IMG/VR virus record: IMGVR_UViG_3300023108_001277
Span: 39,537 to 103,536 of that record
Length of the DNA: 64,000 bases
Reading direction: 5' to 3' (one strand)
From: a virus
The position numbers and the translations under genes are program-made. This document shows, in pieces, positions 1 through 64,000 of this stretch. Position 1 is the stretch's first letter. Each line of letters starts with the position of its first letter. The notes below the pieces were generated by a model. The model saw only the letters and a program-made list of their open reading frames with translations, searched no databases and was not told the origin of the DNA.

Positions 1-452
1 GTTCTATCATTTGCTAGTGTATCTTTAATTGTTGCAACACTAACCTGTGAAACTCCTTCACCGCCTGTTGTCACCGGACCAACTAGAATAAAATCTTCAC
101 CATTAAAAACATATAACTGTTCACCATCTTCTTCCCACCAAAAGTCTCCTTTTGCTAATCCTGATGGTTGTGAAATACCTACTTCGGCGCCGCCTGCAAT
201 ACGCATTTGGTTGCCGTCATAAAATTTAAGAACTTTGTTTGCGGAATCATACCAAATCTGTCCTGCAACCGGTCTTGGTGGAGGAGTAGTTCCTGCAAAG
301 TTCTCCATGAGGTTAACCATATTCTCATTAAGAATTTCACCAAAGCCAGCATAGTTTCTACCAATAAGTTTAATATCAGTAGTTTGATCAATAGTACCGT
401 CATTTACTATTGCAATTTGCTGTCCGTTATATGTGTTTACTATGTATGGCAT
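1..452 (-). CDS. Tail-fibre-type virion protein, N-terminal part (cut by window edge)
   Basis: The ATG at 452 opens a frame that stays open to the window edge (150 codons). The product starts MPYIVNTYNGQQ and carries the same N-terminal module as the three fibre-type proteins encoded downstream at 1432-7607. Shared features are a GRNYAGFGEILNEN motif, a GQIWYD motif near residue 65 and a GDFWWEEDGEQLYVF stretch near residue 100. The module is typical of large virion proteins of marine T4-like phages; its exact place in the virion is not known. The start is chosen because the motif GGTAAATA lies exactly 5 bases upstream and the stop of the preceding gene is adjacent. The C-terminal part, which would tell the paralogs apart, is missing. 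Fibre or baseplate-appendage protein is an inference from the paralogs. Confidence 0.8.
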   Translation of the reverse strand, partial: MPYIVNTYNGQQIAIVNDGTIDQTTDIKLIGRNYAGFGEILNENMVNLMENFAGTTPPPRPVAGQIWYDSANKVLKFYDGNQMRIAGGAEVGISQPSGLAKGDFWWEEDGEQLYVFNGEDFILVGPVTTGGEGVSQVSVATIKDTLANDR

Positions 453-457
453 AAGTG

Positions 458-465
458 TATTTACC
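458..465 (-). promoter_or_regulatory. Late-promoter-like GGTAAATA, 5 nt before the ATG
   Basis: On the minus strand the sequence reads GGTAAATA-CACTT-ATG. TAAATA matches the right half of the T4 late promoter box TATAAATA. In T4 the box spans about -13 to -6, so the +1 base would be the A of the ATG at 452. The upstream AAGG could instead act as a distant ribosome site. Confidence 0.45.
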
Positions 466-939
466 TTAATCTAAATCTAGTCGTTTATTGACTTCTTGTT
501 GTGCTTCTTCTTTTGAAGTATAGTTGTACGGTGAACTTGCATCTTTATAAACTTCTTTTCTAGCCTTATTCTTAGCACGTTCGTCTTCAATGAATTGCAT
601 CATCTTTAGGAATTCTTTTGTTTTAACAATGTCACCATTGTTATGTAAAACATCCATAATAATATTAAGTTGTGTATATAATGGATATTCTAAAATAATA
701 TTTTCTTGAACATTTTGATCTAAAAGTTCTTCGTCAATTGTTGAATTGCCATCGTCTACAATTGGTTGTAGTCCGCCAGTTGCATAATCACCTACATATG
801 CATGAGTGTCAGGATCATAAGATAATGTTTTATATCTAACTCCTTCTAAAAATTGTGAAGGCGTTTGATCCGTTTCAAATCCTCCAATCATTACACCGTT
901 GGATTTATTAAACATTAATGTCATACTTTTGTTTGCCAT
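466..939 (-). CDS. Hypothetical protein, possible tail-fibre assembly chaperone
   Basis: 157 residues, starting MANKSMTLMF. No firm family is recognised. The N-terminal 90 residues look beta-rich with an acidic loop. The middle holds a YPLYTQLNIIMDVLHNNG stretch followed by a charged helix ending in KARKEVYKDA, and the C-terminus is a short charged helix. A tyrosine/proline/glutamine motif before a helix rich in M, F and K/R resembles small chaperones of tail-fibre assembly, and such genes usually lie next to fibre genes, as here. The gene is packed between a fibre gene and an oxygenase gene in the same late operon, with only 4 bases to the upstream neighbour. Chaperone is a weak inference; a small virion protein is equally possible. 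Confidence 0.45.
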   Translation of the reverse strand: MANKSMTLMFNKSNGVMIGGFETDQTPSQFLEGVRYKTLSYDPDTHAYVGDYATGGLQPIVDDGNSTIDEELLDQNVQENIILEYPLYTQLNIIMDVLHNNGDIVKTKEFLKMMQFIEDERAKNKARKEVYKDASSPYNYTSKEEAQQEVNKRLDLD

Positions 940-943
940 ATCT

Positions 944-1432
944 TTATTCCCATATCAGGCAAAGACTATATTTTGGATCTTCACCTTTTTCTATTTTTGT
1001 CACTTCATGCCAAGTATCAATCGGCATATCAAACATTGCTCCTTTTTTCTCTTGAACTAGATGTTCGTTTCCATCTTGGTCCCAGTATTTAAAGTGCGGC
1101 AAGCCTTGTGTTAGATAAACTAACTTAAACTTCCAATATCCTCCTGCACTATCTTGGTGTTTGATTAGCCAATCACCAGGTTGATATTTGTTTACTACTA
1201 CCTGCGAACACCATTTACGTTCATTTGGTATGGTCTTCCAAATAGTTTCAACTAATTCTTCGTTCATATCCTTTTGAAATAATGAACTAAAATTACTTGT
1301 ACCGTACTTTGTTTCGTGCCTTTCTTTTGCGCCTTTGCCTCTTCTAGTAAATTTGCCGTCTTGTTCATGCACCTTTACTAGCATCATAATTTCGTCTACA
1401 TTTGTAATAAAGTCTTCGTTAACTTCATACAT
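944..1432 (-). CDS. 2-oxoglutarate/Fe(II)-dependent oxygenase (prolyl-4-hydroxylase-like)
   Basis: 162 residues from the ATG at 1432. That ATG shares its A with the TAA stop of the upstream fibre gene (TAATG), indicating translational coupling; an in-frame ATG at 1456 lies inside the fibre gene and is less likely. The double-stranded beta-helix motif is visible: His92-x-Asp94 (IKHQDSAGG), distal His142 (TWHEV), and a basic residue in DPKYSLCLIW for the 2-oxoglutarate carboxylate. Such enzymes use Fe(II), O2 and 2-oxoglutarate to hydroxylate proteins or small molecules. They are common in marine T4-like phages, but the substrate is unknown. Its place inside a fibre operon, coupled to a fibre gene, suggests that it may modify a virion protein; that is inference. 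Confidence 0.85.
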   Translation of the reverse strand: MYEVNEDFITNVDEIMMLVKVHEQDGKFTRRGKGAKERHETKYGTSNFSSLFQKDMNEELVETIWKTIPNERKWCSQVVVNKYQPGDWLIKHQDSAGGYWKFKLVYLTQGLPHFKYWDQDGNEHLVQEKKGAMFDMPIDTWHEVTKIEKGEDPKYSLCLIWE

Positions 1433-3774
1433 TAAAAATATCCTACAAATTCCCAACTACCACTTAAAATAGTTTTAGTTATATCATAACTGTATGTACT
1501 AAACTGTGTGTTAGGATCTCCACTAAAAATTCCTCCTAGTTGGAACCATTCAACTACATAGTCATTTCCAGTATAAGTTTGGCGACCTAGTAAAGTATCT
1601 GATTTAATACCGTCTAATAAAACAGCCGATGGGTCAAATCCGTATCCTACTATAACACCATCCTGAATAACAAGAACCCTTGCACCAACACCTTGTGGAA
1701 GACCAATATAGTCTGCTTGATTTTGTGTTAGTCCTCTGTCAGTTGTAATCCAATAAGAATCCGCAAAATCATCTAAGAACGGATCTGCGGTGACATTACT
1801 AAGTTGTGTTGTTGGAACACCAATTCCTTTTTTAACAAATTCATATCCTGTAATTGCACTTTTAGCATTAATTAAATCTGTGACATTTGCTTTTACACCT
1901 ACATAACTGTATGCTCGACCGCCAATAAAACCAATACCATACCTTATACCACTGAATACTCCAAATCTACGATAGAACTGTCCTGAAGGTAAACTTGAAA
2001 AGTAATGTGATCCTAAGATTCTTGCTTTAGTACCTGCAGAATATTGTGTTGCAGGAGCAAGTCTTTCAAGTTGTGCTTTAACTGCATCTAGATTCATATC
2101 TCTAGTATCTAAATGGAATGTTAAATCTTTTGGAATAGCGCCAACTTTTTCATCTACATACTGTTTAATTGCTAATTGAGTGACAACAGTATCGTTATCA
2201 GCACTGTTAAACGTTCCGTCATCTGAAATAAATTTAAAAGACTTGTTATTTGCATCAGTAAATTTAGTAGATTTTACATTTGAAAGAATACCTACTGTAC
2301 CTAACGCACTGTTTTCAATTCTTGAACCATCATCAATCACAACCCTAACTAAGTTAGTATCTTCAATATTTGAATTATCAACTTTTACATATTGTAAAAG
2401 TGTTGTATTTCCATTGCTACCAATAGTACCTTCGGTAATATTAACGTTGTCTGCACTTAACGTATGGTTTACATTAACTGCCGCATTAAAAACTTGTGTT
2501 GCTGTAAATGTTTTAGTACCGCTAATTGTTTGGTTGTTTGATCTATACATACCGTCAAGTACATATCTTGATGTTCCATCTAAGAAACCTTCGTATGTTC
2601 CAGATACACCGTCTTGTCCTGCATCTACTAAAGCAATAACTCTATCATTATCTAATACAATCTTGCCGCCAGTTGCATTTACAGTACCTGTTGTATTACC
2701 TGTGACGTTTCCTGTGACGTTTCCGCTTACATTACCGTTAACACTACCTGTAAGTGTACCACTAAAATTACCTAAAGCATCACCAACTACGTTTGAAAAT
2801 ATAGCATCTGCGTAGATGTTTCTATATTTCATTGTAGGTGCACCTAAGTTTACTTCATTGTCTGCATAAGGTTTTACATCTTTACCTTCAATATAAAAAA
2901 CTGTCTTGTCTGCACCACTGCCTGTATAGTTTACACCAAATGATAATACATCATTTGTTTCGTTATTGATTCCTGCATTACCACTTACACTATCAACATT
3001 AATTTTTAGTTCATCATTAGGACCAACATTAATACCATTATTGTTTTGGAAACTGTAAACACCTGCAATAGTTTCATTTTCTAATCTATTAGCATAAGTG
3101 TCGCCGGCTTTGCCTACTAATCTGTCTGCATCAGTAGCAGTACCGTGATGTTTTGTGTCTGTGCTTACACCGTTTGAATTAGTTCCTTTTAATGTTGTGC
3201 CTCTATAACATTTTGTAAAGTTAGGTACTGGTGTGACTGCTTGATCAATAGTAAATTCTGTATCTGCAACAATCGCATATATTACGTTATGAATATATCC
3301 TGCCATTACAGGATGTTTTGTTCCTTGATCATCAGTTAAAAGAATACTACGCCATTGCGTAAATTCATAACCTTTTAAATCTTGTGGTCCAACTAGAATA
3401 TGTTCATTGCCGTCTGCTGTCCAAGCATATAATTGATTGTTATCTGAGTCCCACCAAAGGTCACCTTCTTTTCTATTGCTTGGTTCTAGATCAGAAACTT
3501 CTAATAATCCAACCTGTCTCCACTCTACACCATCAAAAACAGCAGGACGAAGTGTGTTTACAGTTTTATCAAACCATACTTGACCTACTTGCGCCTTAGG
3601 TGGTTTAGTAGTTGAAGCAAAATTTTCTAATAATTTAACAAAATTCTCATTTTGTATTTCACCGTATCCAGCAACATTACGACCAACTAGTTGTAGGTCC
3701 GTAGTTGTATCAACTACACCATCTGCTAGTGTGACTAACGTTGTTCCGTCTGTTCTGTTAATAGTATATGGCAT
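1432..3774 (-). CDS. Fibre-type virion structural protein, paralog A (780 aa)
   Basis: The N-terminal 150 residues match the module shared with the genes at 1-452, 3784-5619 and 5619-7607: LVGRNVAGYGEIQNEN, GQVWFDK and GDLWWDSDNNQLYAW motifs. A long beta-rich shaft follows, including a glycine/asparagine/valine/threonine run of short repeats (NGNVSGNVTGNVTGN, about residues 335-365), typical of trimeric fibre shafts. The C-terminal 240 residues are unique to this copy and probably form the tip. The gene lies 10 bases from its upstream paralog and overlaps the oxygenase start by one base. Function as a fibre or adhesin is inferred from composition, family and position; no receptor can be named. 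Confidence 0.8.
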   Translation of the reverse strand: MPYTINRTDGTTLVTLADGVVDTTTDLQLVGRNVAGYGEIQNENFVKLLENFASTTKPPKAQVGQVWFDKTVNTLRPAVFDGVEWRQVGLLEVSDLEPSNRKEGDLWWDSDNNQLYAWTADGNEHILVGPQDLKGYEFTQWRSILLTDDQGTKHPVMAGYIHNVIYAIVADTEFTIDQAVTPVPNFTKCYRGTTLKGTNSNGVSTDTKHHGTATDADRLVGKAGDTYANRLENETIAGVYSFQNNNGINVGPNDELKINVDSVSGNAGINNETNDVLSFGVNYTGSGADKTVFYIEGKDVKPYADNEVNLGAPTMKYRNIYADAIFSNVVGDALGNFSGTLTGSVNGNVSGNVTGNVTGNTTGTVNATGGKIVLDNDRVIALVDAGQDGVSGTYEGFLDGTSRYVLDGMYRSNNQTISGTKTFTATQVFNAAVNVNHTLSADNVNITEGTIGSNGNTTLLQYVKVDNSNIEDTNLVRVVIDDGSRIENSALGTVGILSNVKSTKFTDANNKSFKFISDDGTFNSADNDTVVTQLAIKQYVDEKVGAIPKDLTFHLDTRDMNLDAVKAQLERLAPATQYSAGTKARILGSHYFSSLPSGQFYRRFGVFSGIRYGIGFIGGRAYSYVGVKANVTDLINAKSAITGYEFVKKGIGVPTTQLSNVTADPFLDDFADSYWITTDRGLTQNQADYIGLPQGVGARVLVIQDGVIVGYGFDPSAVLLDGIKSDTLLGRQTYTGNDYVVEWFQLGGIFSGDPNTQFSTYSYDITKTILSGSWEFVGYF

Positions 3775-3783
3775 ATCTTATCC

Positions 3784-7607: not shown

Positions 7608-7610
7608 CTA

Positions 7611-8270
7611 TTAATTCTCGCTCAAGTTAGTTAAACTCTGTATTCTAACTGTGTAATCAATCTGTATAAGTCTGTTTAGTGACTTTTGTACAGGGTGGAA
7701 AATTACGTGTGTTAGAAGTCTGCCTTCATTAGCACCTTCGGTGCTGTATGCTCTTAAACCTAGTTCGTCAAAAACAAAATTACCATCTAAGTTTGTGCTG
7801 TTATCAAATGCCTGTTGTCCTGTTGGTTCACCGTAGTCTAATAAACAACTTACTAAAATGTCTGTATATGTTGTACCTAAGGTATGACGTGTTTCGATGA
7901 AGTTTCTTGCAGGATCTGTGTTGTTAACATTGTTATCATCAACTGTTTTATAGTATGTTTGATTGTACAATGAAGCATTAACGCCTGTATTATTTGGAGT
8001 CAAATAAGTGATAATTCCTGTTGGATCTACTGTTGTTCCACCATTGCCAAATGCCATTTCAACGATGTTTCCACGCCCTTCATTTCCAAGTGATTCTGCT
8101 AGTGAAATACTCATGTTTTCGTAATGAATAGCATTACGCTTATTCACTAGTATTTCTCCACTTTTTGGATCAAAGATCTTAATGTGGCCTTCCATTAATA
8201 CACCTGTATTTTCATTTGGTTTTTTGTTTTCTTTTGGCATTTGTTCCAACTTTTTATCCTCGTTTGACAT
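7611..8270 (-). CDS. Conserved virion-type protein of unknown function (219 aa)
   Basis: The product starts with a lysine/asparagine/glutamate-rich, probably flexible tail (about 25 residues). A compact beta-rich domain follows, beginning GHIKIFDPKSGEILVNKRNA and including GNGGTTVDPTG. Proteins of this look occur next to fibre and baseplate genes in marine T4-like phages, but I do not recognise a named T4 counterpart. It sits between the giant protein and the fibre paralogs, 4 bases from the end of the giant gene. A Shine-Dalgarno AAGGAA precedes the ATG and an AATAAATA late-promoter match lies 14 bases upstream, inside the 3' end of the giant gene, so it may also start its own transcript. 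A connector between baseplate and fibre is a guess from position. Confidence 0.6.
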   Translation of the reverse strand: MSNEDKKLEQMPKENKKPNENTGVLMEGHIKIFDPKSGEILVNKRNAIHYENMSISLAESLGNEGRGNIVEMAFGNGGTTVDPTGIITYLTPNNTGVNASLYNQTYYKTVDDNNVNNTDPARNFIETRHTLGTTYTDILVSCLLDYGEPTGQQAFDNSTNLDGNFVFDELGLRAYSTEGANEGRLLTHVIFHPVQKSLNRLIQIDYTVRIQSLTNLSEN

Positions 8271-8273
8271 TGT

Positions 8274-38600: not shown

Positions 38601-40907
38601 ATGGATGAATTAATTGAATATCTTAAAAGTTTGGGTGGCGGAAAAGGCCCTGCTTCCAATGCTTCTATAGAAAGCCTTGCAAGGGCACTAGGAGTACAGG
38701 TTTCTGCAGGTGATGCAACAGTAATCAGTAGCAAAAAGTCCTTTGATGGTTGGGTTGGTAGTATTGTTAAAGGAATTAATGTTGCAGACAAACTTACTAA
38801 CAAATTTGGTAGTATGGTTGAATCAGTTGTTGACTTTTCTAAAGAACAACGTAAAGCCACACAAGTAGTAAAAGATTTTAGCAGTGTTATTCCAATCATG
38901 AAGGGTCTAGGTGTTGCGGCAAGTTCTATTATTAGTGTGCTTGACGACAACATGAAATCGTTCCAGAGTATGACAGGCGCTGGTGTTTATGCTGGAAAAA
39001 GATTTAATATGCTCAGTCGTGATGCGGCCGCATTAGGTATTGATCTTGAAAAGTTTACTACAAATATTCAATCAGCAAGTGGAGATATTGCTAGATTAGG
39101 CAAAGGTGGATTAGACTTTGCAGTAGAAGAAAGTAAACGAGCCTTTGAAGCAAACGCAGAATCATTAATGAAGTATGGATATAGTTTTGAAGAATCTAGT
39201 GAAAAGTTTTTCTCGTTTTTAAATCAAAACAGTTATGCAATGCGTTTGTATGGCAAAGAGAATGTTGATCTAACCAAAGGAGCAAAATCATACAGTGTGT
39301 ATTTGAAACGCCTAGCAGAACTAACAGGTGATCAAGTTGATGAAGCAGAAGATCAAATCAAAAAGGCTAGAGCAAATAATGTGTACAACGCATTTCTACA
39401 AACAATTCAAGACCCTGCTACTAGAGCCAAATATGATGCTATTGTAGCGGCATATGGACAAATGTATGGCGACGAAGGGCGTGAAAAAGCAATGGCCGTA
39501 ATTGCAGGATTTGAACCTATGACCAAAGGTGCTCAACAACTTGGTGCCATGGTGCAAGGCCTAGATGGTGATTTACGAATGCATAGACAATATGCAAACA
39601 ACAGTGCTGAGAATATGGATCAATTTACAAGTACATTGTTTGGCGATGTAGCGGCACGTAGTAGAGGATTGCAAGAAACATATGGCCAACCAGGAATGAT
39701 GAAAACTATGTTAGCGGCATCGTTCCAAGGAGCAGATCTACCACTACAAAGCATATACGGTGCTATGCTAAAGGGAACAAAGTCACAAGAAGAAATTAAT
39801 GAGATTTTAGGCAGGAATGTTGATGACCAAAACAACAATCTAAATGAAATGGCCAAAATGAATAAAAACATTCGTGATACACGTTTGTTAATTGCAGAAG
39901 AACTAGTAGAACAATTAGGCGATACAACTTATATGAGTTTTATCATTAAAGAAATTAACTCTAATTTAGAAAACTTTAATGATGCAATGAAAGCACTATT
40001 ACAAGCACAAGGTTCAACATCAGCAGGAGACACAGCGTCAGGCAAAACAGACGAAACCACGGCAACAAAAGAAGCCATTGAAAACACAATGGATGATGGT
40101 ATTCTTAAAAATATTGCAAACATTTTAGAAGATATTAGAGACGCATTTTCAAGATTGTTCGGTAAAGAAGGTGTTGCGGCGGCATTTGATAAAAAAGCAC
40201 TAGCAAATATACAAAAAGAACTTGCAATAGGATTGCAAAATGGCGGTACGGCTGATATAAGTCAAAACAAAGCAGTACAAGATGTATTTCAAATGTTTCT
40301 TGCTCAAACAGGATCTCAACAAGAGGCTCAACGTTTAACATTAGAAGCACTTAGAAATACGGCACTAAATCCAGCAGTAGGATATGGCGGTGGCAAAGAA
40401 ATGGCTGACATGGTACAACAAGGTATTGCTAGTGGAAAAATTAAAACGTTTGCTGGCGGTACTGGAGGTTTTGGCAGTTTATTCCAAAACTTTGGTAAAG
40501 GTCAACTTTCAGTGCTTCATAACGAAGAAGCAGTTATTCCTAAAGATTCACCATTAGGTGGAATGCTTAATATGATGCAAGGTGATTTAGGAAATCTTAA
40601 ACAAAATATGTTTACTGCTGATGGAAAAATGAATGTTTCTGGAATGATATCGTCTGCACAGGAAATGGGCAAGAAATATGACACTTATGCAAAAGAAAAT
40701 GAAGGTGCTATTAAAGACCAAAGCCGCGGTTTGGTAAAATCTATGACCAATTTGACTGATGCAGATCTTGACAGGATGGAGAAAGAGAGTGTAAAATCAA
40801 ATAATACTGTGAGTTCTGGCACATCGGTAAATACAATGTCAGGCGGCAAAATGGACGAATTGATAAGAATTAATAAACAAATGTTAGCAGAATTGAGAAA
40901 TATGTAA
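38601..40907 (+). CDS. 29: Tail tape measure protein, gp29 counterpart (768 aa)
   Basis: Long and mainly helical. Small-residue and hydrophobic helices lie near 95-130 (VVKDFSSVIPIMKGLGVAAS). The central region is rich in charged helices and Q/N. A C-terminal block GGTGGFGSLFQNFGKGQLSVLHNEEAVIP (about 615-650) is typical of the ends of tape measure proteins. T4 gp29 is 590 residues; at about 1.5 angstrom per residue this one would allow a tail of about 115 nm. The neighbouring frameshifted gp26/gp51 pair on the other strand supports the role, since tape measure genes normally sit beside such chaperones. Its last base is shared with the portal ATG. Identification by architecture and position, with fair confidence. 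Confidence 0.75.
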   Translation: MDELIEYLKSLGGGKGPASNASIESLARALGVQVSAGDATVISSKKSFDGWVGSIVKGINVADKLTNKFGSMVESVVDFSKEQRKATQVVKDFSSVIPIMKGLGVAASSIISVLDDNMKSFQSMTGAGVYAGKRFNMLSRDAAALGIDLEKFTTNIQSASGDIARLGKGGLDFAVEESKRAFEANAESLMKYGYSFEESSEKFFSFLNQNSYAMRLYGKENVDLTKGAKSYSVYLKRLAELTGDQVDEAEDQIKKARANNVYNAFLQTIQDPATRAKYDAIVAAYGQMYGDEGREKAMAVIAGFEPMTKGAQQLGAMVQGLDGDLRMHRQYANNSAENMDQFTSTLFGDVAARSRGLQETYGQPGMMKTMLAASFQGADLPLQSIYGAMLKGTKSQEEINEILGRNVDDQNNNLNEMAKMNKNIRDTRLLIAEELVEQLGDTTYMSFIIKEINSNLENFNDAMKALLQAQGSTSAGDTASGKTDETTATKEAIENTMDDGILKNIANILEDIRDAFSRLFGKEGVAAAFDKKALANIQKELAIGLQNGGTADISQNKAVQDVFQMFLAQTGSQQEAQRLTLEALRNTALNPAVGYGGGKEMADMVQQGIASGKIKTFAGGTGGFGSLFQNFGKGQLSVLHNEEAVIPKDSPLGGMLNMMQGDLGNLKQNMFTADGKMNVSGMISSAQEMGKKYDTYAKENEGAIKDQSRGLVKSMTNLTDADLDRMEKESVKSNNTVSSGTSVNTMSGGKMDELIRINKQMLAELRNM

Positions 40908-42640
40908 TGAGTTGGAAAAGATACTTCACAGATTATACACCTAAAGACACTTCAGGACAAACTAGTCCTATTCCAGGATCAGGCGGAGCCGGTCCTGCAC
41001 GTACCAACTATTCATCATTTCTTCCTGATGTTTATACAGGTCATCCAAATCGTATTGAACGCTATGGTCAGTACGAAACAATGGACATGGACAGTGAAGT
41101 AAATGCGGCACTGGATATTCTTGCTGAATTTTGTTCACAGAAAAATCCAGAAAACAACACGCCTTTTAAAATTAACTACAAAAAACAAGGTACTAGTACA
41201 GAAACTAAAGTACTAAAAGGTTATCTACAACAGTGGGCAGACCTAAATAATTTTGAAAGACGTATTTTTAAAATTGTACGTAATGTATTCAAATACGGTG
41301 ATGCATTTTTTGTACGTGATCCAGAAACATTTAAGTGGATGCACGTTGACCCTGCAAAACTAGACAAGATTATTGTAAACGAAAGTGAAGGCAAAGAGCC
41401 TGAGCAATATGTAGTTAGAGATATTAATCCTAATTTTCAAAATTTATCAGTGACACAAATTGATGCTAAGTCAACTAATTCACAAGTTGAGTATACTACT
41501 GCTGGCGGTTCACTTGGTAGAGGTTATGTAGGTGGTGCTAATACTAACTCAGGCACACGTTTTGAAAATAACCTAAACCAGTTTGCCATTGATGCGGCAC
41601 ATTTTGTACATATCAGTTTAAGTGAAGGACTAGATAGAAACTTTCCATTTGGTAATTCACTATTAGAATCAGTTTTTAAAGTTTACAAACAAAAAGAGTT
41701 ATTAGAAGATGCGATTATTATCTATCGTGTACAAAGAGCACCTGAAAGACGTGTGTTCTATATTGACGTAGGTAATATGCCAACACACCTTGCTATGGGA
41801 TTTGTTGAAAGAGTTAAAAATGAAATTAACCAAAGACGTATTCCAAGTACTTCAGGTGGCGGCACCAATGTAATTGATGCTAGTTTCAATCCGCTGTCTA
41901 TCAATGAGGACTACTTCTTTCCACAAACGGCTGAAGGTAGAGGTTCTAAGGTTGAAACATTGCCCGGTGGTACTAACCTAGGTGAAATTGATGACTTGAA
42001 ATTCTTTACTAATAAACTATTCCGTGGTTTACGTATTCCAAGTTCTTATCTACCAACAGGTGCAGATGACAGTGCTTCACAATATAATGACGGTAGAGTT
42101 GGCACAGCATACATTCAAGAGTTAAGATTTAACAAATATTGCGAACGTTTACAAAACTTAATGGCATTTATCTTTGATAAAGAGTTTAAAATGTATCTAA
42201 ATGCTAAAGGTGTAAACATTGATAACGATTTATTTGATCTAGTATTCCAACCTCCAATGAACTTTGCTTCATACAGACAAAGTGAAATGGATAATGCAAG
42301 GGTTAACACATTTGCTTCATTACAAGAAATTCCATATATGAGTAAACGTTTTGCACTTAAACGTTTCTTAGGACTAACACCTGAAGAAATGGCAGAGAAT
42401 GAATCACTATGGAAAGAAGAAAACGGTGATCAAATTCCAAACAATGAAAGTGCAAGTATGGAAATGAGAGGTGCAGGAGTCACAGCAGGCGGAATTGCTA
42501 GTGATATAGATAATCTTGGTGATGCATCACCAGATGCAGAAGCACCACCACCAGCAGAAGAAGGCGGAGATACTACTCCAGCAGGCGGAGGCGAAGGCGG
42601 AGCAACACCACCACCACCAGGCGGCACTCCAGGCGCATAG
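40907..42640 (+). CDS. 20: Portal vertex protein gp20
   Basis: 577 residues. The opening (MSWKRYFTDY, SSFLPDVYTGHPNRIERYGQ, YETMDMDSEVNAALDILAEF) and the central YRVQRAPERRVFYIDVGNMP, NEDYFFPQTAEGRGSKVETL, GIPSSYLP-type motif and EFKMYLNAKG are gp20 hallmarks. It forms the dodecameric portal for DNA packaging and tail joining. Unusual here is the C-terminal tail (last 45 residues), a low-complexity run of proline, glycine, alanine and glutamate that follows the conserved end and is probably disordered. The ATG overlaps the stop of the tape measure gene (AATGA type). Confidence 0.96.
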   Translation: MSWKRYFTDYTPKDTSGQTSPIPGSGGAGPARTNYSSFLPDVYTGHPNRIERYGQYETMDMDSEVNAALDILAEFCSQKNPENNTPFKINYKKQGTSTETKVLKGYLQQWADLNNFERRIFKIVRNVFKYGDAFFVRDPETFKWMHVDPAKLDKIIVNESEGKEPEQYVVRDINPNFQNLSVTQIDAKSTNSQVEYTTAGGSLGRGYVGGANTNSGTRFENNLNQFAIDAAHFVHISLSEGLDRNFPFGNSLLESVFKVYKQKELLEDAIIIYRVQRAPERRVFYIDVGNMPTHLAMGFVERVKNEINQRRIPSTSGGGTNVIDASFNPLSINEDYFFPQTAEGRGSKVETLPGGTNLGEIDDLKFFTNKLFRGLRIPSSYLPTGADDSASQYNDGRVGTAYIQELRFNKYCERLQNLMAFIFDKEFKMYLNAKGVNIDNDLFDLVFQPPMNFASYRQSEMDNARVNTFASLQEIPYMSKRFALKRFLGLTPEEMAENESLWKEENGDQIPNNESASMEMRGAGVTAGGIASDIDNLGDASPDAEAPPPAEEGGDTTPAGGGEGGATPPPPGGTPGA

Positions 42641-46258: not shown

Positions 46259-47431
46259 ATGTCAGAAAATATCAACAACAACTGGCAGGAAACCAAAGAA
46301 GCACTTTTAGAAGGCCTTCAAGGTTCTAAAAAAGGTGTTATGGATGTCACTCTCGAGAACACTCGCAAGTATCTCGCTGAGGCGGCAACCGCTGGGGCAA
46401 CTTCCGCAGGGAACGTAGCAACTCTAAACAGAGTTATCCTTCCAGTAATTAGACGTGTTATGCCAACTACAATCGCTAACGAGATTGTTGGTGTACAACC
46501 AATGACTGGACCTGTAGCACAGATCCACACACTAAGAGTACGTTATGCTGAAACTTTCGATTCTGCAACAGCAGGCGAAGAAGCACTTTCACCATTTAAA
46601 ATTGCTGAAGGTTATTCAGGTAATGCAACTACTAATGCGGCAGATGCGACTGCAACATTAGAAGGTTCTGCAGGTAAAAAGTTAAGCATTCAAATCTTAA
46701 AACAAGCAGTAGAAGCGAAAACTCGTAAACTATCTGCTCGTTGGACATTTGAAGCGGCTCAAGATGCTCAAGCACAGCAAGGCATCGACGTAGAGGCTGA
46801 AATCATGGCGGCTTTAGCACAAGAAATTACTGCTGAAATCGATCAAGAGATCATCCAATCACTTCGTTCATTAGCATCAGTTGAAGAAACTTACGACCAA
46901 GCAGGCGTAAGTGGTACTGCAACTTTCGTTGGTGACGAACACGCGGCTTTAGCAGTTCAAATTAACAGAGTTGCTAACAAAATTGCTCAACGTACACGTA
47001 GAGGCGCAGGAAACTTTGCAGTGGTTTCAAACCAAGCATTGACAATCCTACAGTCTGCTACAACTTCTGCGTTCGCAAGAACAACTGAAGGTACTTTTGA
47101 AGGCCCAACAAACACTAAGTATGTTGGTACTTTAAATAACTCTATGAGAGTTTACGTTGACGCTTACTTGGCTGATTCAGGTCAAGATGCTAACCAAGTG
47201 CTTGTTGGATATAAAGGTTCATCAGAAGCAGATGCGGCGGCATTCTACTGCCCATACATTCCGCTAATGTCTTCAGGTGTTGTTTTAGATCCATCAACTT
47301 TCGAACCAGTTGTGTCATTTATGACTAGATATGGTTATGTAGAGTTGACAAACACTGCATCTTCACTAGGTAATGCGGCTGACTACCTTGGTAAAGTACA
47401 AATTACTTCTGCCAACGTATCATTCTCTTAA
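46259..47431 (+). CDS. 23: Major capsid protein gp23
   Basis: 390 residues. LPVIRRVMPTTIANEIVGVQ with PMTGPVAQIHTLRVRY is the gp23 signature; later come RKLSARWTFEAAQDAQAQQG, IDQEIIQSLRSLA, YVGTLNNSMRVYVDAY and FEPVVSFMTRYGYVELTN. It is clearly shorter than T4 gp23 (521). A likely gp21 cut is Leu39-Ala40-Glu41|Ala42, which would remove a 41-residue propeptide instead of the 65 of T4. It is followed by a strong terminator, which suits a very highly expressed last gene of the head operon. Confidence 0.96.
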   Translation: MSENINNNWQETKEALLEGLQGSKKGVMDVTLENTRKYLAEAATAGATSAGNVATLNRVILPVIRRVMPTTIANEIVGVQPMTGPVAQIHTLRVRYAETFDSATAGEEALSPFKIAEGYSGNATTNAADATATLEGSAGKKLSIQILKQAVEAKTRKLSARWTFEAAQDAQAQQGIDVEAEIMAALAQEITAEIDQEIIQSLRSLASVEETYDQAGVSGTATFVGDEHAALAVQINRVANKIAQRTRRGAGNFAVVSNQALTILQSATTSAFARTTEGTFEGPTNTKYVGTLNNSMRVYVDAYLADSGQDANQVLVGYKGSSEADAAAFYCPYIPLMSSGVVLDPSTFEPVVSFMTRYGYVELTNTASSLGNAADYLGKVQITSANVSFS

Positions 47432-50197: not shown

Positions 50198-50232
50198 TTT
50201 TAACTACATACTTACGGTTTTTCCAATAAAGA

Positions 50233-50239: not shown

Positions 50240-50343
50240 CTATTAATGCAAACTTGACCGTTTAGGTTTGCAGGACAAACAGTGGTTAACCCGCTATGTA
50301 AGGTGGTTAGAGGCACAGGATGCCCGGTTTATAGGAGAACACA
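50240..50343 (+). promoter_or_regulatory. Structured 5' leader of the 1228-aa fibre gene
   Basis: Hairpins TGCAAAC/GTTTGCA (50247-50272), TAACC/GGTTA (50287-50309) and GGCA/TGCC (50312-50324) precede ATAGGAGA and the ATG. The plan (late box, about 100-nt leader with three hairpins, ribosome site) equals that at 47778-47879, although the sequences differ. Confidence 0.4.
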
Positions 50344-54030: not shown

Positions 54031-54039
54031 AGAAAATAG

Positions 54040-54369: not shown

Positions 54370-54381
54370 TAGGAGATAACG

Positions 54382-54729: not shown

Positions 54730-54746
54730 ATATAGGTGAGAAATAA

Positions 54747-57700: not shown

Positions 57701-60700
57701 TTATTGTCATATTGGATACTTGTCTGAAGCAGGCGGAAAGATTCGTGCTACAAACGGAAACAACTCATACGGTGATTACGGTTCTGTTGCTGAAGGGTAT
57801 GACTTATTAGAAACACCAATTACAGCAAATGTAAACAACAGAGATAATGACGCAACAGTATCAAACGTATTAACAGATTTAGACAACGAAATTTATTTGT
57901 TTGGTTATGCACACGCTGGACAAAATTATACAAGTGCAGATATTGATGCATTTTCAGGTACTGGTTCTAACTTAGAAGCAGAATTTAAAGAATTTAGAAA
58001 CAAATCACTATCACAAGTTAGAATGCTTGATCCGGGTGATTCATCTACACCTGGTGGTTCAGGATTTAGTATTACTACAGGTCAGTCACAAGGTGGAACA
58101 GGTTCTACACTTTTATTAAGTGCAACTGATACTGTTGAAGATAGTAGTGGTGTTTATGATGGAAAGCGTATTTTTATTACGCAGGGTAAAGGTAAAGGAC
58201 AATACGGTTATATCCAATCATACGATCCGTCAAGTAAAGTTGCATATATTCTAAGAGAAAGTGACGACTTACCAGGTTGGGATCATTGGATTCCAGGGAC
58301 TCCAATTCAAACAAGTCTTGACGATACTGCATTTTATCAAATTGAGCCAAGAGTTGAATTTAGTAAACCTCCGTTTGCAACTGAAAGCATCAATGTTAAC
58401 ACTCCATTAGACTATAAAAAAGTTGTGTTTGGTAATAATAGATACGTTGCTATTGCACAAAGTGAATTTGGTAATTCAGGAACAGATCAGTTTGTTTATT
58501 CTACAAACGGTACTAGTTGGACTGCCGGAAATATGGATGGAAGTAATCTTCCACAATCAACCGGTCGTTGGTCTTGGCAAGATTTAGATTACGGTGGCGG
58601 TAAGTTTGTTGCTGTTGCTAAAGAAGGTATTGTTGCGGTATCAAGCGACGGCGAAAACTGGACAATGTACGAGGTCACTAACGATAGTACAGGAGTTCAA
58701 ACAAGATATATTGCATTTGGTGATAACCCAACAATTGAGCAGACATTTAAAGTCACAGTTTCTGTACCTGGAGACAATCCACTTTATCACTTTGATGGCG
58801 CAGTAAATACTGCTCCAGATATTTCTGTTGTTGAAGGAAATACTTATACGTTTAATCAAAACGATGGCTCAAATAACAACTGCCCAATTTATTTTAGTTC
58901 AACTCCGGAAGGTATTAATGGCGGCGGCGACGAATATACAGAAGGCGTAAAATATTATCTTAATAATAAACAAGTTGCAGATTTAGCGGCTTATGTATCA
59001 GGATTTAATGCGGCGCAAACAAGAAAAGTAGTATGGACAGTACCCAACTCGTTAGTTGGTGTTCCTATGTATTATGTAAACTATAATAGTACAGGATCAG
59101 GTGTACAACCAGATAGTTCGTATGCACTTGTAAGAGTTGATGGGCGTTCAGAATGGTTAGTGACATCAAACGGCTCGCCTGAATATTTCCAAAGTTTAGA
59201 TTATGGCAATACATGGACAGCAGGACAATTACCGTCAGCAGAAAGTTTTGACGGCGGCGTTAGAGGAATGGCATACGGATCCGGCAAGTTTGTTGCAGTA
59301 GCGGGTGACTGGGATTCTTCTAAAATGAGAATTTATACAAAAACACCTGGTAATACTGAATGGGCTGAAAACTTTGTTAGCATGGGAGATATGTCAAATG
59401 TTGAAAGCATGGTTTATGGTAATAACATTTTCCTTGCAACAGAAACAAATAGCGACGATGTATGGATTAATCCAACAGGCGGCCATGGTGCGTGGTATAG
59501 ACAAGAAAATGTTTTACCATCAACAGGCAACTGGTTCTTAGGATACGGCCAAGGTGTATATGTAGCATTTAAACCTAATACGGACGAATTTGCAATTTCA
59601 GAAAATGGAATTTTTTGGGAAGCAAAAACTCTTCCAACTACTGCTAATTGGACCACTTGTGGAATTGGTACTCCTGGAAACTCATGTAAATTTGTATTAA
59701 TGGGAAGTGGTAGTCCTCTACAAGGTTCAGGCGAACAAAATGCTGTTGTAATTCAAGCAGGTAGAAAACCATTTGCTAGAATGTTTGTTAAAAATACAAG
59801 AGCAGGCGAGTTTTGGATTTATGATCCAGGTTCAAACTACGAAAGCGATTTATTGAATGTTAATAATACGTTTGCTGTCACATTTGGTAGAAATGCGGCA
59901 GATACAGCAGATGTTTATTTTATCGACGGAAGCGAAAACCCAACATTAACATTTACTGAAGGTAGAAGATATACTTTTGATTTAAGTGATGAATCACTTA
60001 AAAACTATGGTGGTGCAGTTGTTGACGGTGTAGTTGAAGATAACATTCATCCATTGAATATCTATCAAGATGCGGCTAAAACTATTGTTTGGTCCGATAA
60101 TGTTGTATATCGTTTTGGAACAACAGTTGTAAGCAGAGACGTGTTCCTTAGAGATTTTGCAGATTATGCAAATCGTACAGTTGAAATTGAAATTCAATAT
60201 GATGCACCAAGTGGTCTGTATTATGGTAGCACAGAAGATGCTGGCGCAACAGCAATTACAATTGAAGAAACAGATGCTATGAGTATGACAGTTAGTGATC
60301 CTTTAGCAACTGTTGATCCTTATGTTAAATTAAGAATTGCAAATGGTGTATTACCTCAACCTTCATTTAGAAATAGAGGTACTAAATTTAGAAGTGCAAC
60401 AGCAAGTGTCACAGGCGACGGATATGCTGATGTATATCAAACAGGAAACAAAATTAAGGTCACTGATTTAACTAGAGAACCAGGTCCGGGTGCTAACTTA
60501 TCAATTACAGGTATTGACGGAAAAACATATTTGGTCACAAAAGTCACTGATATTACAGGATCTGAACCAACGTTGTCAGCAACAATACAGATTAGTCCAA
60601 CATTAGGAGTTGACGAGTCACCAGATCATAACACAGCACTAGTAATGCGTGAACAATACAGTCAGGTTCGTTTAACATTCCATGACTTCCTAGATATTGG

Positions 60701-61331
60701 TACTGGTAATAAAAATTCAACTAGATATCCTGTAAGATACTTACAAGGATTTACTGAAGCAGACGAAGATGCTGTAAAACAACAAAACGAAACAGACTTT
60801 AGTGATGGTGGTAGAGTGTTTTACTCGTCCACTGACCAAGATGGAAACTTTAGAGTAGGTGAACTATTTGAAGTTGAGCAGGCATCGGGTATTATTACTA
60901 TTAATGCTGATCAGTTTGATTTATCAGGATTAACAGAATTATCATTAGGTGGTGTGACACTTGGTGGTACGGGTGCAGTAATTAAAGAGTTCTCAATTGA
61001 TCCGCTGTTTGTAGCAAACAGTGATAACGTAGTACCAACACAAAAAGCAATAGCGGCATACGTTAAATCACGTATTACAGGTGGTGGTTCTAGTGTTAAT
61101 GTTAACAAAGTCACTGCTGGTGTTATTACATCAGGTGATAGTGGTCAAGAAATAGATACTACCGACGGTAGTGTTATACAAGCAAAAGCAAAAATATCGT
61201 TTGAAGGCGGTGTAGGCGGTGATATGGCGGCTAGAGCGTTCTTTGCATTTGGTACTGACATTGCTATTTCAGATGATTTTGGAGGACAAGATGAGTCCGG
61301 AGGGAATACGAATGATAACTACGGAGCATAA
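54747..61331 (+). CDS. Giant fibre/adhesin protein with chitin-binding-like repeats, beta-helix and propeller (2194 aa)
   Basis: Residues 1-480 and about 655-700 hold eight copies of a W-x-Y-x-GDVVxxGGxxYxCxxxHT module, close to carbohydrate-binding module family 5/12 (for example WAPATNYKPQDIVRYGGYVY). About 520-650, 1333-1456 and 1709-1841 are three cupredoxin-like beta domains; the first and third keep an early His (SHPIY, IHPLN) but lack Cys-His-Met, so no copper site. About 780-1020 is a pectate-lyase-like beta-helix (NPFRTVKYALDHI, VVGDELRSTRIVP). Propeller-like repeats surround the second cupredoxin (MAYGSGKFVAVAGDWDSSKM, FVYSTNGTSW). The C-terminus (STDQDGNFRVGELFEVEQAS) matches the 1228-residue fibre. 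Binding of surface sugars is inferred. Confidence 0.8.
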   Translation: MAQFKLDRFTYKYRGDWAPDVAYALDDIVTVNGNVYFCTAAHTSQDDFYGDFLYDFTYPEPYSAPNGVDDEFNLSANAGGQNTTVDGTGIDFTVTRSGKKYSVTLVAGGRNYVAKEYFVIPGDQVGGVRGVNDATVTVATVDNAYEGALVVPGVVQSLEVSGTPATTRWEIMSEGYSWQGAWQNSTSVSSIDPETGNNVITITPKLYYINDLVERGGIIYRCTQGHQALTDADFGHANNIRFWTTHVFGSHWSGDWVGFTPYQVGDVVRAGGSTWRCTTAHTSGTNAEGLAGDQGYWERIVTGDDWLNEWAPATNYKPQDIVRYGGYVYRANAQHTSTSNFENEVDVEGWWDLVVPGIEYKGLWTAPTAHVQGGTPNTIKWKVGDMVRHSQAIYVCNATHTVTGTDEETDDPLFRDTESYWNLYVAGMAYEEQWNADTNYQPGDIVEYGGYTYYCKTFHTNKVPSVEVNDWELLSEWYNFKNDWSAVQPYKVGDVVRNHGYLYWAVIDNVGSKPDSGIKTDVSITFGTAFNWDGVTTPNKTYTRGTTLILDQSHSSNDSHPIYPADTTDGFLNVADGGNELFTGVQTTYILDDEIVASLEDYNSGFNTATVRQVIVKLEPDCPDAIYFADYNNTGSSGVQVISVSGTSNWDLLMPGVSFKGPWNDFDADSTLNAYELGDIVLWAGTAYQCIRRHDANSANSRPDQDTRKTIPVYWKVYVQGIRTNVLARPGDIKTYSAGSNERLEIGDLGTVLKGLPQTNADSSLGQGPQWDLLGDSKNNFYVALDGVDEATRGATKQNPFRTVKYALDHIAGDTVNRTPATVFVSTGEFKEILPLKIPANVAVVGDELRSTRIVPAAGYEGTDMFHVKNGCGIRNCTLQGLVGTMSAVNEFGTKRPVGGHPAFVSLDPGTGPSDSNVWVTSKSTYVQNVTTFGTNCVGMKIDGGLHLGGNKSIVANDFTQVISGGIGIWVTNGALSELVSVFTYYCHIGYLSEAGGKIRATNGNNSYGDYGSVAEGYDLLETPITANVNNRDNDATVSNVLTDLDNEIYLFGYAHAGQNYTSADIDAFSGTGSNLEAEFKEFRNKSLSQVRMLDPGDSSTPGGSGFSITTGQSQGGTGSTLLLSATDTVEDSSGVYDGKRIFITQGKGKGQYGYIQSYDPSSKVAYILRESDDLPGWDHWIPGTPIQTSLDDTAFYQIEPRVEFSKPPFATESINVNTPLDYKKVVFGNNRYVAIAQSEFGNSGTDQFVYSTNGTSWTAGNMDGSNLPQSTGRWSWQDLDYGGGKFVAVAKEGIVAVSSDGENWTMYEVTNDSTGVQTRYIAFGDNPTIEQTFKVTVSVPGDNPLYHFDGAVNTAPDISVVEGNTYTFNQNDGSNNNCPIYFSSTPEGINGGGDEYTEGVKYYLNNKQVADLAAYVSGFNAAQTRKVVWTVPNSLVGVPMYYVNYNSTGSGVQPDSSYALVRVDGRSEWLVTSNGSPEYFQSLDYGNTWTAGQLPSAESFDGGVRGMAYGSGKFVAVAGDWDSSKMRIYTKTPGNTEWAENFVSMGDMSNVESMVYGNNIFLATETNSDDVWINPTGGHGAWYRQENVLPSTGNWFLGYGQGVYVAFKPNTDEFAISENGIFWEAKTLPTTANWTTCGIGTPGNSCKFVLMGSGSPLQGSGEQNAVVIQAGRKPFARMFVKNTRAGEFWIYDPGSNYESDLLNVNNTFAVTFGRNAADTADVYFIDGSENPTLTFTEGRRYTFDLSDESLKNYGGAVVDGVVEDNIHPLNIYQDAAKTIVWSDNVVYRFGTTVVSRDVFLRDFADYANRTVEIEIQYDAPSGLYYGSTEDAGATAITIEETDAMSMTVSDPLATVDPYVKLRIANGVLPQPSFRNRGTKFRSATASVTGDGYADVYQTGNKIKVTDLTREPGPGANLSITGIDGKTYLVTKVTDITGSEPTLSATIQISPTLGVDESPDHNTALVMREQYSQVRLTFHDFLDIGTGNKNSTRYPVRYLQGFTEADEDAVKQQNETDFSDGGRVFYSSTDQDGNFRVGELFEVEQASGIITINADQFDLSGLTELSLGGVTLGGTGAVIKEFSIDPLFVANSDNVVPTQKAIAAYVKSRITGGGSSVNVNKVTAGVITSGDSGQEIDTTDGSVIQAKAKISFEGGVGGDMAARAFFAFGTDIAISDDFGGQDESGGNTNDNYGA

Positions 61332-61334
61332 TAT

Positions 61335-61342
61335 AATAAATA
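61335..61342 (+). promoter_or_regulatory. Late-promoter-like AATAAATA before the last fibre gene
   Basis: It lies 3 bases after the stop of the 2194-residue gene and 21 bases before the ATG at 61364; CGGAG gives a ribosome site. Confidence 0.5.
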
Positions 61343-61363
61343 ACTACGATATCGGAGCAAAAC

Positions 61364-64000
61364 ATGGCTGAATTTCTATTAGGAAGAATTAAATTTGTAT
61401 GGAAAGGCGACTGGACAACCAGTACAGCATACGTTAAAGACGATGTTGTAAGGTACGGTGGTAAAGTATATATTTGTACTGAAGCACATACCGCAGACGC
61501 TGACTTTTATGTAGATAGTGCAAACTGGAATACGTTTGCTGATGGTTCTGCATGGAAGGAAGACTGGGCAACTAGCACTTATTATAAAACAGGTGATGTT
61601 GTAAAATATGGTGGTTATCTATATATTGCAAATAATGGCCACACTTCAGCCGATACAACAACAAAAGGTTTAGAGTTTAACCAAGGCGACTGGGACACAT
61701 ACGCAGAATTTTTTAATTATACCGGCGCTTGGGCAACTAGCACAAGATATAAAGTTAATGATATTGCCAAGTATGGCGGAACAGTTTATGTTTGTATTGA
61801 TGATCATACATCAAGTGCAACAGCATCTTCAGACAGTGATGGTTTAGAAAACGACAACGATGGTAAAGCATTAACAATTGATTCGATATCAGCGGCAAAC
61901 GTTTCTAGAAGTCAGGGAACATATACAGGAATTACACCAACAGACGGTTCTGGATCAGGATTAGTTTTAGATGCCACAGTTGATAACATTGGTGGTGTTG
62001 CGATTACATTAACAAGCAATGGTACAGGATATGCAGTTGGCGATGTATTAACAATTACTGATGCACAACTTGGTGGTGGTGGCGCTCCTAATGTGACATT
62101 TAGAATTGCTTCAGTTGCAGACAGATGGAATATTTTTACAGAAGGTTTTGAATGGAAAAACAACTGGGCAATTTCAACTAGGTACAAACTAAATGACCTT
62201 GTTAAGTATGGTGGTCAAATTTATGTTTGTATTCAAGGCCACCAGTCTGCAACAGATTTAGCAGATGGATTAGAAGTAGATCAAGCAAAATGGCAACACT
62301 TTCATAAAGGTATTGAATACAGAGAAACTTGGTCAACAGGTACACGTTATAGAATTAATGACATTGTAAAATATGGCGCAAACATTTGGATTTGTACAGC
62401 GGCTCATACAGCAACTAATAGTTTTGCAACAGATGAAGGCAATTGGTCAATTTTTGTTCCAGGATTAGAATACGAAGATTCGTGGAGCAATGGTGAAGTT
62501 TATCAACCAGGAGACATTGTCACATACGGCGGTTATTCTTATATTGCAAATACTAACAACACTGGTAAGCCACCGTATGCAAACGCAAACGATTGGAAGT
62601 TATACCTAAAAGGTTATAACTTTAGAGGCGACTATGGTGACGACTCTTCATTACAAGATTATCTAGTAGGAGATGTAGTAAGACTAGGTGGATACACTTA
62701 TATGTGTATTCAAGACCATCAAGGTGTTGCAAAAAATCCTGCAAGTGAAACAACTTTTTGGACAAAATTAAACGAAGGTTTTGCTTGGAAAGGCAACTGG
62801 ACAAACATTACAGATTATGTATTAGGTGATGTTGTTTACTATGGTGTGAACTCATACGTAGTAATTCAAGCACACCAATCAAACCAAGCAATTGGTCAAA
62901 AGCGTCCTGACTTAGATGTTTCAGGTACCTACTACAAATTATTAGCAGGTGGTGCTGAAGGTTCTAACTTAACAACAGACGGTGACCTATTAATTTACAA
63001 TGGTGCAGGTCCTGCACGTTTACCAATTGGTGAAGAAGGACAAGTATTAACAGTTGACACAACTGGACTACCAGCATGGAAATACTGGGGCAGAACAGAC
63101 CACGTTTATTATGTTGGTCCTGATGGTGTTGACGGCGCATATCCAAATAGAGGTTCTACACTTGATAGACCTTTTAAATCTGTAAGATTTGCTTGTGAAG
63201 CAATTGAAAAAGGTGTACTAAGACCTAATGCAGTACAACTATTAAAAGAGAATAGACAATTTATTCAAAGAGAAATTGTTGAATGGACAGATTATCAAAT
63301 TGCAAATGACATTGCACCATTTACTAGTGCTTTCTCATATGACAGTGCAAAATGTTATAGAGACATGGGCATTATTATTGATGCTGTTATTTGGGATTTA
63401 TCACATGGTGGCAATACAGAATCAAGAAAAGCCGCATATGCTTACTTTACAAAAGCAGGCGGAAGTTATATTAACGGTCAAGAATCAGAAACAGTTGCTT
63501 CTATTAACTACGGTATTGAAGTAATTGATGCTGTTATTAGCAGTCTTGATCCGGCATCAAACTACCAAACATTAAACAGTTATACACCGGCAATTACACA
63601 AAGAAAAGATACTGCTCTTGTTGAAGAATCTGAAGCACAGAGCGTTATTGAAAGTTTAGTTGCAATTATTACTGATGCTATTACAGCAGGTAGTGCATCA
63701 GGTATTCCAACAGAAGAACAAGTACAAAAAACTGTGTTTGTTAAAACAGGAGAATATAAAGAAGTTCTTCCTATTAGAGTTCCTGCAAATACAGCAGTTG
63801 TTGGTGACGAATTGCGTTCAACTAGAATTCGACCAAGTGAAGATACTGACTACGTTTCAAGAAGCGATGTTGATTACAGTTTAGCAGGTATCACAAGAGT
63901 ACAAGGTTTACTAAGCGATATTATTCAAGGTAGTGCTGTCACTAAAACAGGCACTAACACACAAACACAAGTACAAGCACTTCCGTATGGTACTGCAACA
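61364..64000 (+). CDS. Second giant chitin-binding-like repeat fibre protein (N-terminal 879 aa, runs off window)
   Basis: The ATG at 61364 opens a frame without stops to the window end. It begins MAEFLLGRIKFVWKGDW and holds eight modules of the W-x-Y-x-DVVxYGGxxYxCxxxHT type (for example STAYVKDDVVRYGGKVYICT, TRYRINDIVKYGANIWICTA) in about 530 residues, with one beta-rich insertion after the third. A linker with GDLLIYNGAGPARLPIGEEG follows, then the beta-helix entry HVYYVGPDGVDG ... FKSVRFACEAIEKG and ILPLK-like LPIRVPANTAVVGDELRSTR. The last stretch is nearly the same as in the upstream 2194-residue protein, so the two are tandem paralogs. The end and any tip domain lie outside the window. 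Confidence 0.85.
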   Translation, partial: MAEFLLGRIKFVWKGDWTTSTAYVKDDVVRYGGKVYICTEAHTADADFYVDSANWNTFADGSAWKEDWATSTYYKTGDVVKYGGYLYIANNGHTSADTTTKGLEFNQGDWDTYAEFFNYTGAWATSTRYKVNDIAKYGGTVYVCIDDHTSSATASSDSDGLENDNDGKALTIDSISAANVSRSQGTYTGITPTDGSGSGLVLDATVDNIGGVAITLTSNGTGYAVGDVLTITDAQLGGGGAPNVTFRIASVADRWNIFTEGFEWKNNWAISTRYKLNDLVKYGGQIYVCIQGHQSATDLADGLEVDQAKWQHFHKGIEYRETWSTGTRYRINDIVKYGANIWICTAAHTATNSFATDEGNWSIFVPGLEYEDSWSNGEVYQPGDIVTYGGYSYIANTNNTGKPPYANANDWKLYLKGYNFRGDYGDDSSLQDYLVGDVVRLGGYTYMCIQDHQGVAKNPASETTFWTKLNEGFAWKGNWTNITDYVLGDVVYYGVNSYVVIQAHQSNQAIGQKRPDLDVSGTYYKLLAGGAEGSNLTTDGDLLIYNGAGPARLPIGEEGQVLTVDTTGLPAWKYWGRTDHVYYVGPDGVDGAYPNRGSTLDRPFKSVRFACEAIEKGVLRPNAVQLLKENRQFIQREIVEWTDYQIANDIAPFTSAFSYDSAKCYRDMGIIIDAVIWDLSHGGNTESRKAAYAYFTKAGGSYINGQESETVASINYGIEVIDAVISSLDPASNYQTLNSYTPAITQRKDTALVEESEAQSVIESLVAIITDAITAGSASGIPTEEQVQKTVFVKTGEYKEVLPIRVPANTAVVGDELRSTRIRPSEDTDYVSRSDVDYSLAGITRVQGLLSDIIQGSAVTKTGTNTQTQVQALPYGTAT

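Follow-up and report, generated by a model that had tools for sequence, protein, structure and literature searches.

The stretch of viral DNA analysed here, a window of 64,000 bases that comprises positions 39,537-103,536 of the 103,536-base IMG/VR record IMGVR_UViG_3300023108_001277, contains no copy of GTTAC or of its complement GTAAC. Being reverse complements, the two words form one palindrome, GTWAC, with a degenerate W centre. GTWAC is one of five palindromes purged from this phage, together with AGCT, GCWGC, RCATGY and HGCGCD. The pattern is Type II-style restriction-site avoidance, a known phenomenon, and the phage was very probably selected by Type II-like host restriction, with sites eliminated to avoid cutting. 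For the jumbo T4-like lineage we tentatively propose, with doubt slightly ahead of confidence, that a guanine transglycosylase marks G before purines genome-wide and that selection deletes exactly the restriction words left unmarked.

Purged palindromes and their kept sister words

By exact count the window holds 0 GTTAC and 0 GTAAC, next to 62 GTCAC and 70 GTGAC. A maximal-order Markov model expects 124 copies of GTTAC/GTAAC, and no other 5-mer has a z as low as the resulting -13.6. A shuffle of synonymous codons, confined to the window's 32 predicted genes longer than 300 bases, gives an expectation of 145 ± 8 GTWAC, and the minimum in 200 shuffles is 120. Codon use therefore does not explain the zero count. 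The other 39,536 bases of the record likewise contain 0 GTWAC, which gives 0 against 193-249 expected for the whole 103.5-kb record. This record aligns over its whole length at 99.988% to a genome of 181,867 bases, G001, in which GTWAC is again 0 (336-443 expected; 354 ± 12 by codon shuffle, with a minimum of 329 in 100 shuffles). It is also 0 in five polymerase loci that are 100.0% identical to the record (L084, L085, L086, L151 and L146, the last lying within G001). The five loci carry five different IMG sample numbers, which makes an assembly artefact unlikely. An earlier note on this DNA had reported the missing word on both strands of the 64 kb and the abundance of GTCAC and GTGAC, and had proposed a Markov count over all 5-mers, a codon shuffle and a count in the full genome and its relatives as checks. 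Its observation is confirmed by the Markov count, the codon shuffle and the count in the full genome.

The companion words show the same behavior. AGCT and GCAGC/GCTGC have zero copies in the window, and in the 103.5-kb record we count 0 AGCT (237-349 expected), 0 GCWGC (96-111), 0 RCATGY (19-128) and 0 WGCGCW (7-48). All GCGC that remain in G001 sit in GGCGC or GCGCC, so that the missing form is HGCGCD, with 0 observed against 66 by codon shuffle. The kept sister words are raised over codon shuffle, GTSAC with 324 against 189 and GCSGC with 235 against 64. It looks as if part of the lost sites became these forms.

Loss of GTWAC compared with relatives, and the choice of purged words

With the phage's own DNA polymerase we collected 72 viral loci. 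All 72 lack AGCT and GCWGC, 70 lack WGCGCW, and RCATGY is missing in a patchy subset. GTWAC is present in 67 and is 0 only in the five identical loci described above, which belong to the same species; GTWAC numbers are ordinary in relatives whose mean identity is 72-84%. The loss of GTWAC looks recent and selective. Against L004, a relative with a mean identity of 83.9%, 44 GTWAC sites can be aligned and 0 are kept in the phage. In the same comparison the phage keeps 9 of 16 GTSAC, 14 of 21 GCSGC and 19 of 35 GATC sites, and of all 5-mers 49.6% are the same in both. Among the 43 losses that can be assigned, 30 are synonymous and 13 alter the amino acids. Losses by a single base occur at word positions 1, 2, 3 and 5 and comprise transitions as well as transversions; position 4 is changed against other relatives such as L006 and L008. 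This spread over word positions and mutation types argues for selection and not for one mutational process.

The choice of words was compared over 4-base palindromes and 5-base palindromes with a W or S centre, at an expectation of at least 14, and a word counts as purged at ≤3% of expectation. Loci below 9,000 bases and near-duplicates were dropped. The near set comprises 108 de-duplicated loci with polymerase, gp23 or near matches to a protein resembling tRNA-guanine transglycosylase (TGT). It includes contigs of metagenome-assembled genomes (MAGs) with gp23 down to 35% identity, and only part of it consists of known TGT-like carriers. The far set comprises 53 loci found by distant TGT-like homologues. 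Palindromes with a GA or GG on one strand or the other are purged in 0 of 1,367 tests in the near set and 0 of 766 in the far set (0/2,133 in total). Other G-containing palindromes are purged in 60 of 1,539 and 13 of 793 tests, respectively (73/2,332). In the controls it is mainly GA/GG words that are purged: T7-like loci give 37 of 799 for GA/GG words against 6 of 549 for other G words, and cyanophage-like T4 loci give 7 of 412 against 1 of 405 and, for words without G or C, 5 of 230. Counted as distinct purged 4/5-base words, 9 of 9 lack an internal GA or GG in the jumbo sets, against 2 of 6 G-containing words in the controls. Over 151 near-set loci, here not de-duplicated, GATC never falls below 0.90 of expectation; GGCC dips to 0.35 and GANTC to 0.42, both above the purge limit.

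Purging was further mapped by Fitch parsimony onto a midpoint-rooted FastTree phylogeny of 127 distinct TGT-like proteins, with the expectation lowered to at least 6, at which a few false purges are possible, for GCGC especially. Gains and losses of purging amount to 6/2 for AGCT, 5/7 for GCWGC, 7/2 for RCATGY, 4/7 for HGCGCD, 9/2 for GCGC (at low expectations), 3/0 for CATG and 1/0 for ACWGT, and to 2/0 each for CTAG, GTAC and GTWAC. No tip shows purging of GATC, GGCC, CCGG, TCGA, GANTC, CCWGG or GGWCC; CCGG is untestable at 4 tips and GGWCC at 8. The second, separate gain of GTWAC purging belongs to a distant relative in the far set, L471, whose whole record (G042, 57,482 bases) has 0 GTWAC and 83 GTSAC. 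Another W-only purge is seen in L462, L463 and L497, where ACWGT is 0 while ACSGT has 36, 34 and 15 copies.

A TGT-like protein and a proposed model of modification and purging

The phage lineage encodes a TGT-like protein, g158 (Table 1), which by its structural model is a TGT-fold protein with both conserved aspartate motifs. The AlphaFold model built from 64 sequences has a pLDDT of 84 and a pTM of 0.87; an initial model on a shallow alignment reached only a pLDDT of 42 and was set aside. VIA-align places the model on TGTs with Z 19.1 and rmsd 4.4 over 301 residues, and the 50 matches listed are all TGTs. Foldseek matches TGTs at 2.4e-6, and all 14 matches below 0.001 are TGTs. Among viral models, the matches of g158 include protein R9TGF0 of Vibrio phage nt-1 (2.4e-10) and, from phage Motura, a protein annotated as tRNA guanine transglycosylase (5e-12). 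Its sequence contains the motifs DSGGFQ, VLQG, MGGQN, HFLGT and FDCASP. D100 and D293 are invariant in 64 sequences, with the DSGG(F/Y)Q and FDC motifs present, and the aspartates of these two motifs we take to be the two catalytic aspartates of TGTs. By hhalign the motifs of the g158 family align to two cellular TGTs at E 1e-4 and a probability of 56%, which falls to 17% when the DpdA of phage 9g is added to the TGT pair. By sequence, g158 matches 0 Pfam families and has no PHROG match better than 0.034, and PDB sequence and profile searches with g158, A4 and A6 find no TGT. No CXC is seen by eye in g158; a CXCXXC zinc motif is a feature of tRNA-guanine transglycosylase proper.

g158 is 88-93% identical in 26 relatives and 44-49% identical in the far set. 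Of the 29 records selected by gp23, a large part of which are fragments, 6 carry the gene at 47-84% identity, and Phosso has a homologue whose best-matching piece is 39% identical. None of the 16 cyanophage-like and none of the 4 T7-like control records yields the gene. These absences are weak because many records are fragmentary, and presence in the far set and at the tree tips is no evidence because both were selected by the gene. Candidates for part of the preQ0 supply set (FolE, QueD, QueE, QueC) are also found. The phage genome carries FolE, a Vut_1 transporter (a family that includes YhhQ, a transporter of preQ0) and a QueE-like protein by PHROG, for which Pfam Radical_SAM stays under its cut-off. 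Among 14 records, most of them fragments, Vut_1 is found in 3 and QueD in 2; G042 has a QueD-family match.

The model that joins these observations is that purging removes the sites that the phage's own DNA modification would fail to protect. We consider it plausible, with belief and doubt in equal measure. g158 would be a DpdA-type enzyme that swaps G for 7-deazaguanine in genomic DNA, and the motif may be G before purines, that is GA and GG, or perhaps GA and GGC. For phage CAjan, the accessible text of PMC8306585 gives GA and GGC as the sites that its DpdA modifies. Modification of this kind would block cutting at GTGAC/GTCAC, GCGGC, GGCGC, GGCC and GATC-like sites and make purging needless there. 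A putative host enzyme of GTNAC specificity would then cut GTWAC alone, and the lineage would have lost GTWAC. By the same reasoning the unmaskable remainder of GTNAC would be GTWAC, that of GCNGC would be GCWGC, that of GCGC would be HGCGCD and that of CATG would be RCATGY; AGCT would never be masked. Five ordinary four- or five-base specificities and one modification rule would thus yield all five purged words. Enzymes with such four- and five-base specificities exist. Masking of GGCGC would demand more, as the purine-preceding G lies just outside GCGC, and would require a neighbour-base effect or modification of the second G.

Several points weigh against this model. The modification, its motif and the host enzymes are what we infer. 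The control sets used for the word comparison are small and not host-matched, and the loci share ancestry. Pfam TGT (PF01702) matches in 0 of 17 viral records, and hhalign of A5 against the DpdA of 9g gives no match. The preQ0 precursor would need to be supplied by the host, since QueC is found in 0 of 14 records (mostly fragments) and QueD is absent from G001. GCWGC and RCATGY exist as enzyme specificities in their own right. G001 also retains CATGG without a following C, which speaks against a strict GA/GGC rule; it is compatible with a G-purine rule or with an NspI-type enzyme. In phage MED16, as far as the accessible text of PMC8306585 goes, several GA/GGC sites are still cut and dADG appeared to affect the tested enzymes minimally.

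Some lineages break the rule outright. Whole CATG, including CATGA and CATGG, is purged in L064, L099/L281 (one contig), L484 and L494, and DCATGH in L252. Whole CTAG is purged in the jumbo-phage loci L217, L222, L233, L234 and L236, and whole GCGC including GGCGC in G002, L212, L244, L246 and L261. In the 10-kb locus L028 all four CTNAG forms are absent; its CTGAG/CTCAG is the sole GA-containing purge seen and fell under the expectation limit of the rule test. Modification-insensitive enzymes must be assumed for these whole-word purges of CATG, CTAG, GCGC and CTNAG. In phages of the 7-deazaguanine groups, GG words are depleted without being purged. The phage nt-1 stretch (L205) has 6 GGCC where 30 are expected and 10 CCGG where 31 are expected, and in the 9g-type loci L533-L535 GGWCC is depleted to 0.15-0.36, though not purged. 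No 4/5-base palindrome reaches the 3% limit in seven 9g-type loci or in a 50-kb 9g stretch, where the lowest value is 0.04 for AAWTT in L538.

Competing explanations

The best-surviving alternative is plain site elimination, in which host enzymes for GTWAC, AGCT, GCWGC, RCATGY and HGCGCD would act and modification would be irrelevant to word choice. We regard it as a substantial possibility, if a somewhat doubtful one. Complete or near-complete site elimination is found in about one tenth of viral genomes according to the accessible text of PMC6286503. There is nothing unusual in a Type II site with a W centre: among 35 T7-like control loci, 20 purge CCWGG and 4 purge GGWCC, and among 73 such loci, 2 purge the whole word CCNGG and 1 the whole word GGNCC. 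The whole-word purges listed above point in the same direction, as the G-purine versions are not always spared. However, plain elimination leaves the G-purine rule unexplained, both the absence of any purge in the GA/GG tests and the seven GA/GG words without a gain on the tree. It also requires the specificities HGCGCD and ACWGT, and we know of no enzyme with either. For GTWAC, no restriction paper was found by title or start of abstract in a literature search whose coverage leaves out most subscription journals and all preprints.

That the phage encodes nucleases for the purged words, to break down the DNA of its host, and has cleared its own genome of these words is unlikely. The loss of AGCT and GCWGC in 72 of 72 polymerase relatives is what a shared gene would give, and the phage encodes a small HNH-like protein (G001 46665-47018, with Pfam HNH_3 under its cut-off) and a TnsA-like nuclease domain. 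Nothing ties these genes to the purged words, and the tree shows repeated gains and losses of the purge sets, with GTWAC lost in one species among the 72 relatives. The Pfam scans of pooled G001 genes took in 34, 29 and 38 of 191 predicted proteins, of which the second pool was limited to the best 25 of 56 families and was the only one given to PADLOC; a rare nuclease could escape them. C5 and N4/N6 DNA methylase families (PF00145 and PF01555) match in 0 of 14 records each. On phage nucleases these methylase negatives are not decisive, because a lack of methylases is expected there too.

A Type III, BREX or other non-palindromic system aimed at GTTAC is highly improbable. Absence from both strands would follow from such a system too. 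However, the word pair amounts to the palindrome GTWAC and stands among palindromic companions throughout, so that Type III and BREX, for which avoidance would presuppose an asymmetric recognition word, are not natural candidates. In the accessible text of PMC6286503, avoidance of Type III sites is described as very rare and that of Type I sites as unobserved. The earlier note had read GTTAC as a non-palindromic 5-mer and had offered Type III or BREX systems, or marking or cutting of the word by the phage itself, as causes. Selection by a host defence, which it also proposed, stands as the best reading of the absence. The other parts fare less well: both strands jointly give a Type II-shaped site that is one of several purged palindromes, self-marking is not supported by the methylase searches in the 14 records, and cutting of host DNA by the phage fits less well because of the repeated gains and losses. 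The palindromy of GTWAC and the absence of AGCT, GCWGC, RCATGY and HGCGCD had been overlooked there.

Mutational bias or codon usage without selection can be dismissed for practical purposes, as nothing in the analysis favors it and the codon shuffles, the losses at all five word positions by transitions and transversions, and the ordinary GTWAC numbers of the relatives all speak against it.

The phage and its place among known systems

The nearest isolates by gp23 (tblastn) are Sinorhizobium phage Phosso with 70%, Vibrio phage 2.275.O with 67%, PA5oct with 65% and the GAP32/CBB group with 64%. A cyanophage host, guessed early from ferredoxin-, 2OG- and QueE-like matches, was rejected on the ground that the nearest isolates, among them Phosso, PA5oct, GAP32 and CBB, are jumbo phages. 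G001 encodes several 2OG-Fe(II) oxygenase-like proteins, for example L181:2077-2610, and no tRNAs are found in it. The PHROG label 'HNH endonuclease' for L003:13703-14983 is contradicted by Pfam DUF2201/VWA. This VWA-like DUF2201 protein lies near an ATPase (L003:11059-12153), possibly as a MoxR/VWA pair. No polymerase relatives are found among genome contigs. gp23 matches in ten MAG contigs of mixed taxa resemble co-binned phage and give no host assignment. The PBPT01 contigs L195 and L196 are large jumbo-phage contigs binned into a Neomarinimicrobiota MAG, which also carries a TGT-like gene 84% identical. The features discussed are collected in Table 1.

Table 1. Features of the phage and its lineage; positions are those of the window unless another locus is named.
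Feature	Position	Strand	Remarks
Whole window	1..64000		zero GTWAC, AGCT, GCWGC, RCATGY; HGCGCD zero in coding DNA; GTSAC and GCSGC over-represented
Open reading frame, 4,641 aa	8274-22199	-	homologues across nearly full length in relatives
T4-like portal protein gp20	40907..42640	+	Pfam PF07230, 3.5e-109
Stretch alignable to L004	43865..55176	+	two BLAST pieces, 87.3% and 81.9% identical
Major capsid protein gp23	46259..47431	+	Pfam PF07068, 3.1e-98
Open reading frame, 2,194 aa	54747-61331	+	homologues across nearly full length in relatives
TGT-like protein g158, 485 aa	L002:17812-19269 (outside window)		adjoins DNA polymerase

Restriction of the MaeIII type at GTNAC would cut both GTWAC and GTSAC. 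In this phage, in contrast, GTWAC alone is purged and GTSAC is raised. The cases of site elimination in double-stranded DNA phages described in the accessible text of Rusinov et al. 2018 (PMC6286503) are similar in that palindromic Type II-like sites are lost completely relative to a composition model. Unlike those cases, five words are purged at once in one 182-kb genome, with a rule for word choice, and the set is layered, being common to all, some or one species of the polymerase relatives. In the HF1-group haloviruses, the avoidance that the authors term remarkable in the accessible part of PMC7230728 includes GATC, a GA word, whereas GATC is purged at 0 of 127 tips of the TGT-like tree. 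The phage resembles the 7-deazaguanine phages 9g, CAjan and nt-1, as covered in the accessible text of PMC6884629, in having FolE, a QueE-like and a TGT-fold protein in one genome; for nt-1, DpdA2 is described there and low 7-deazaguanine levels were measured. In contrast to these phages, the modification is here a prediction, g158 does not match the DpdA of 9g by hhalign, and QueC was not found in 14 records.

Usual descriptions keep site elimination and base modification apart, and the BASEL paper (PMC8594841) treats the two separately in its accessible text. In this lineage the gaps of a putative modification appear to set the purged words. If this is true, lists of purged words from metagenomes would reveal the motif of the modification along with the restriction specificities of uncultured hosts, and a phage protein of wide occurrence would gain a testable role. 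Close relatives that retain GTWAC allow the purge to be traced site by site.

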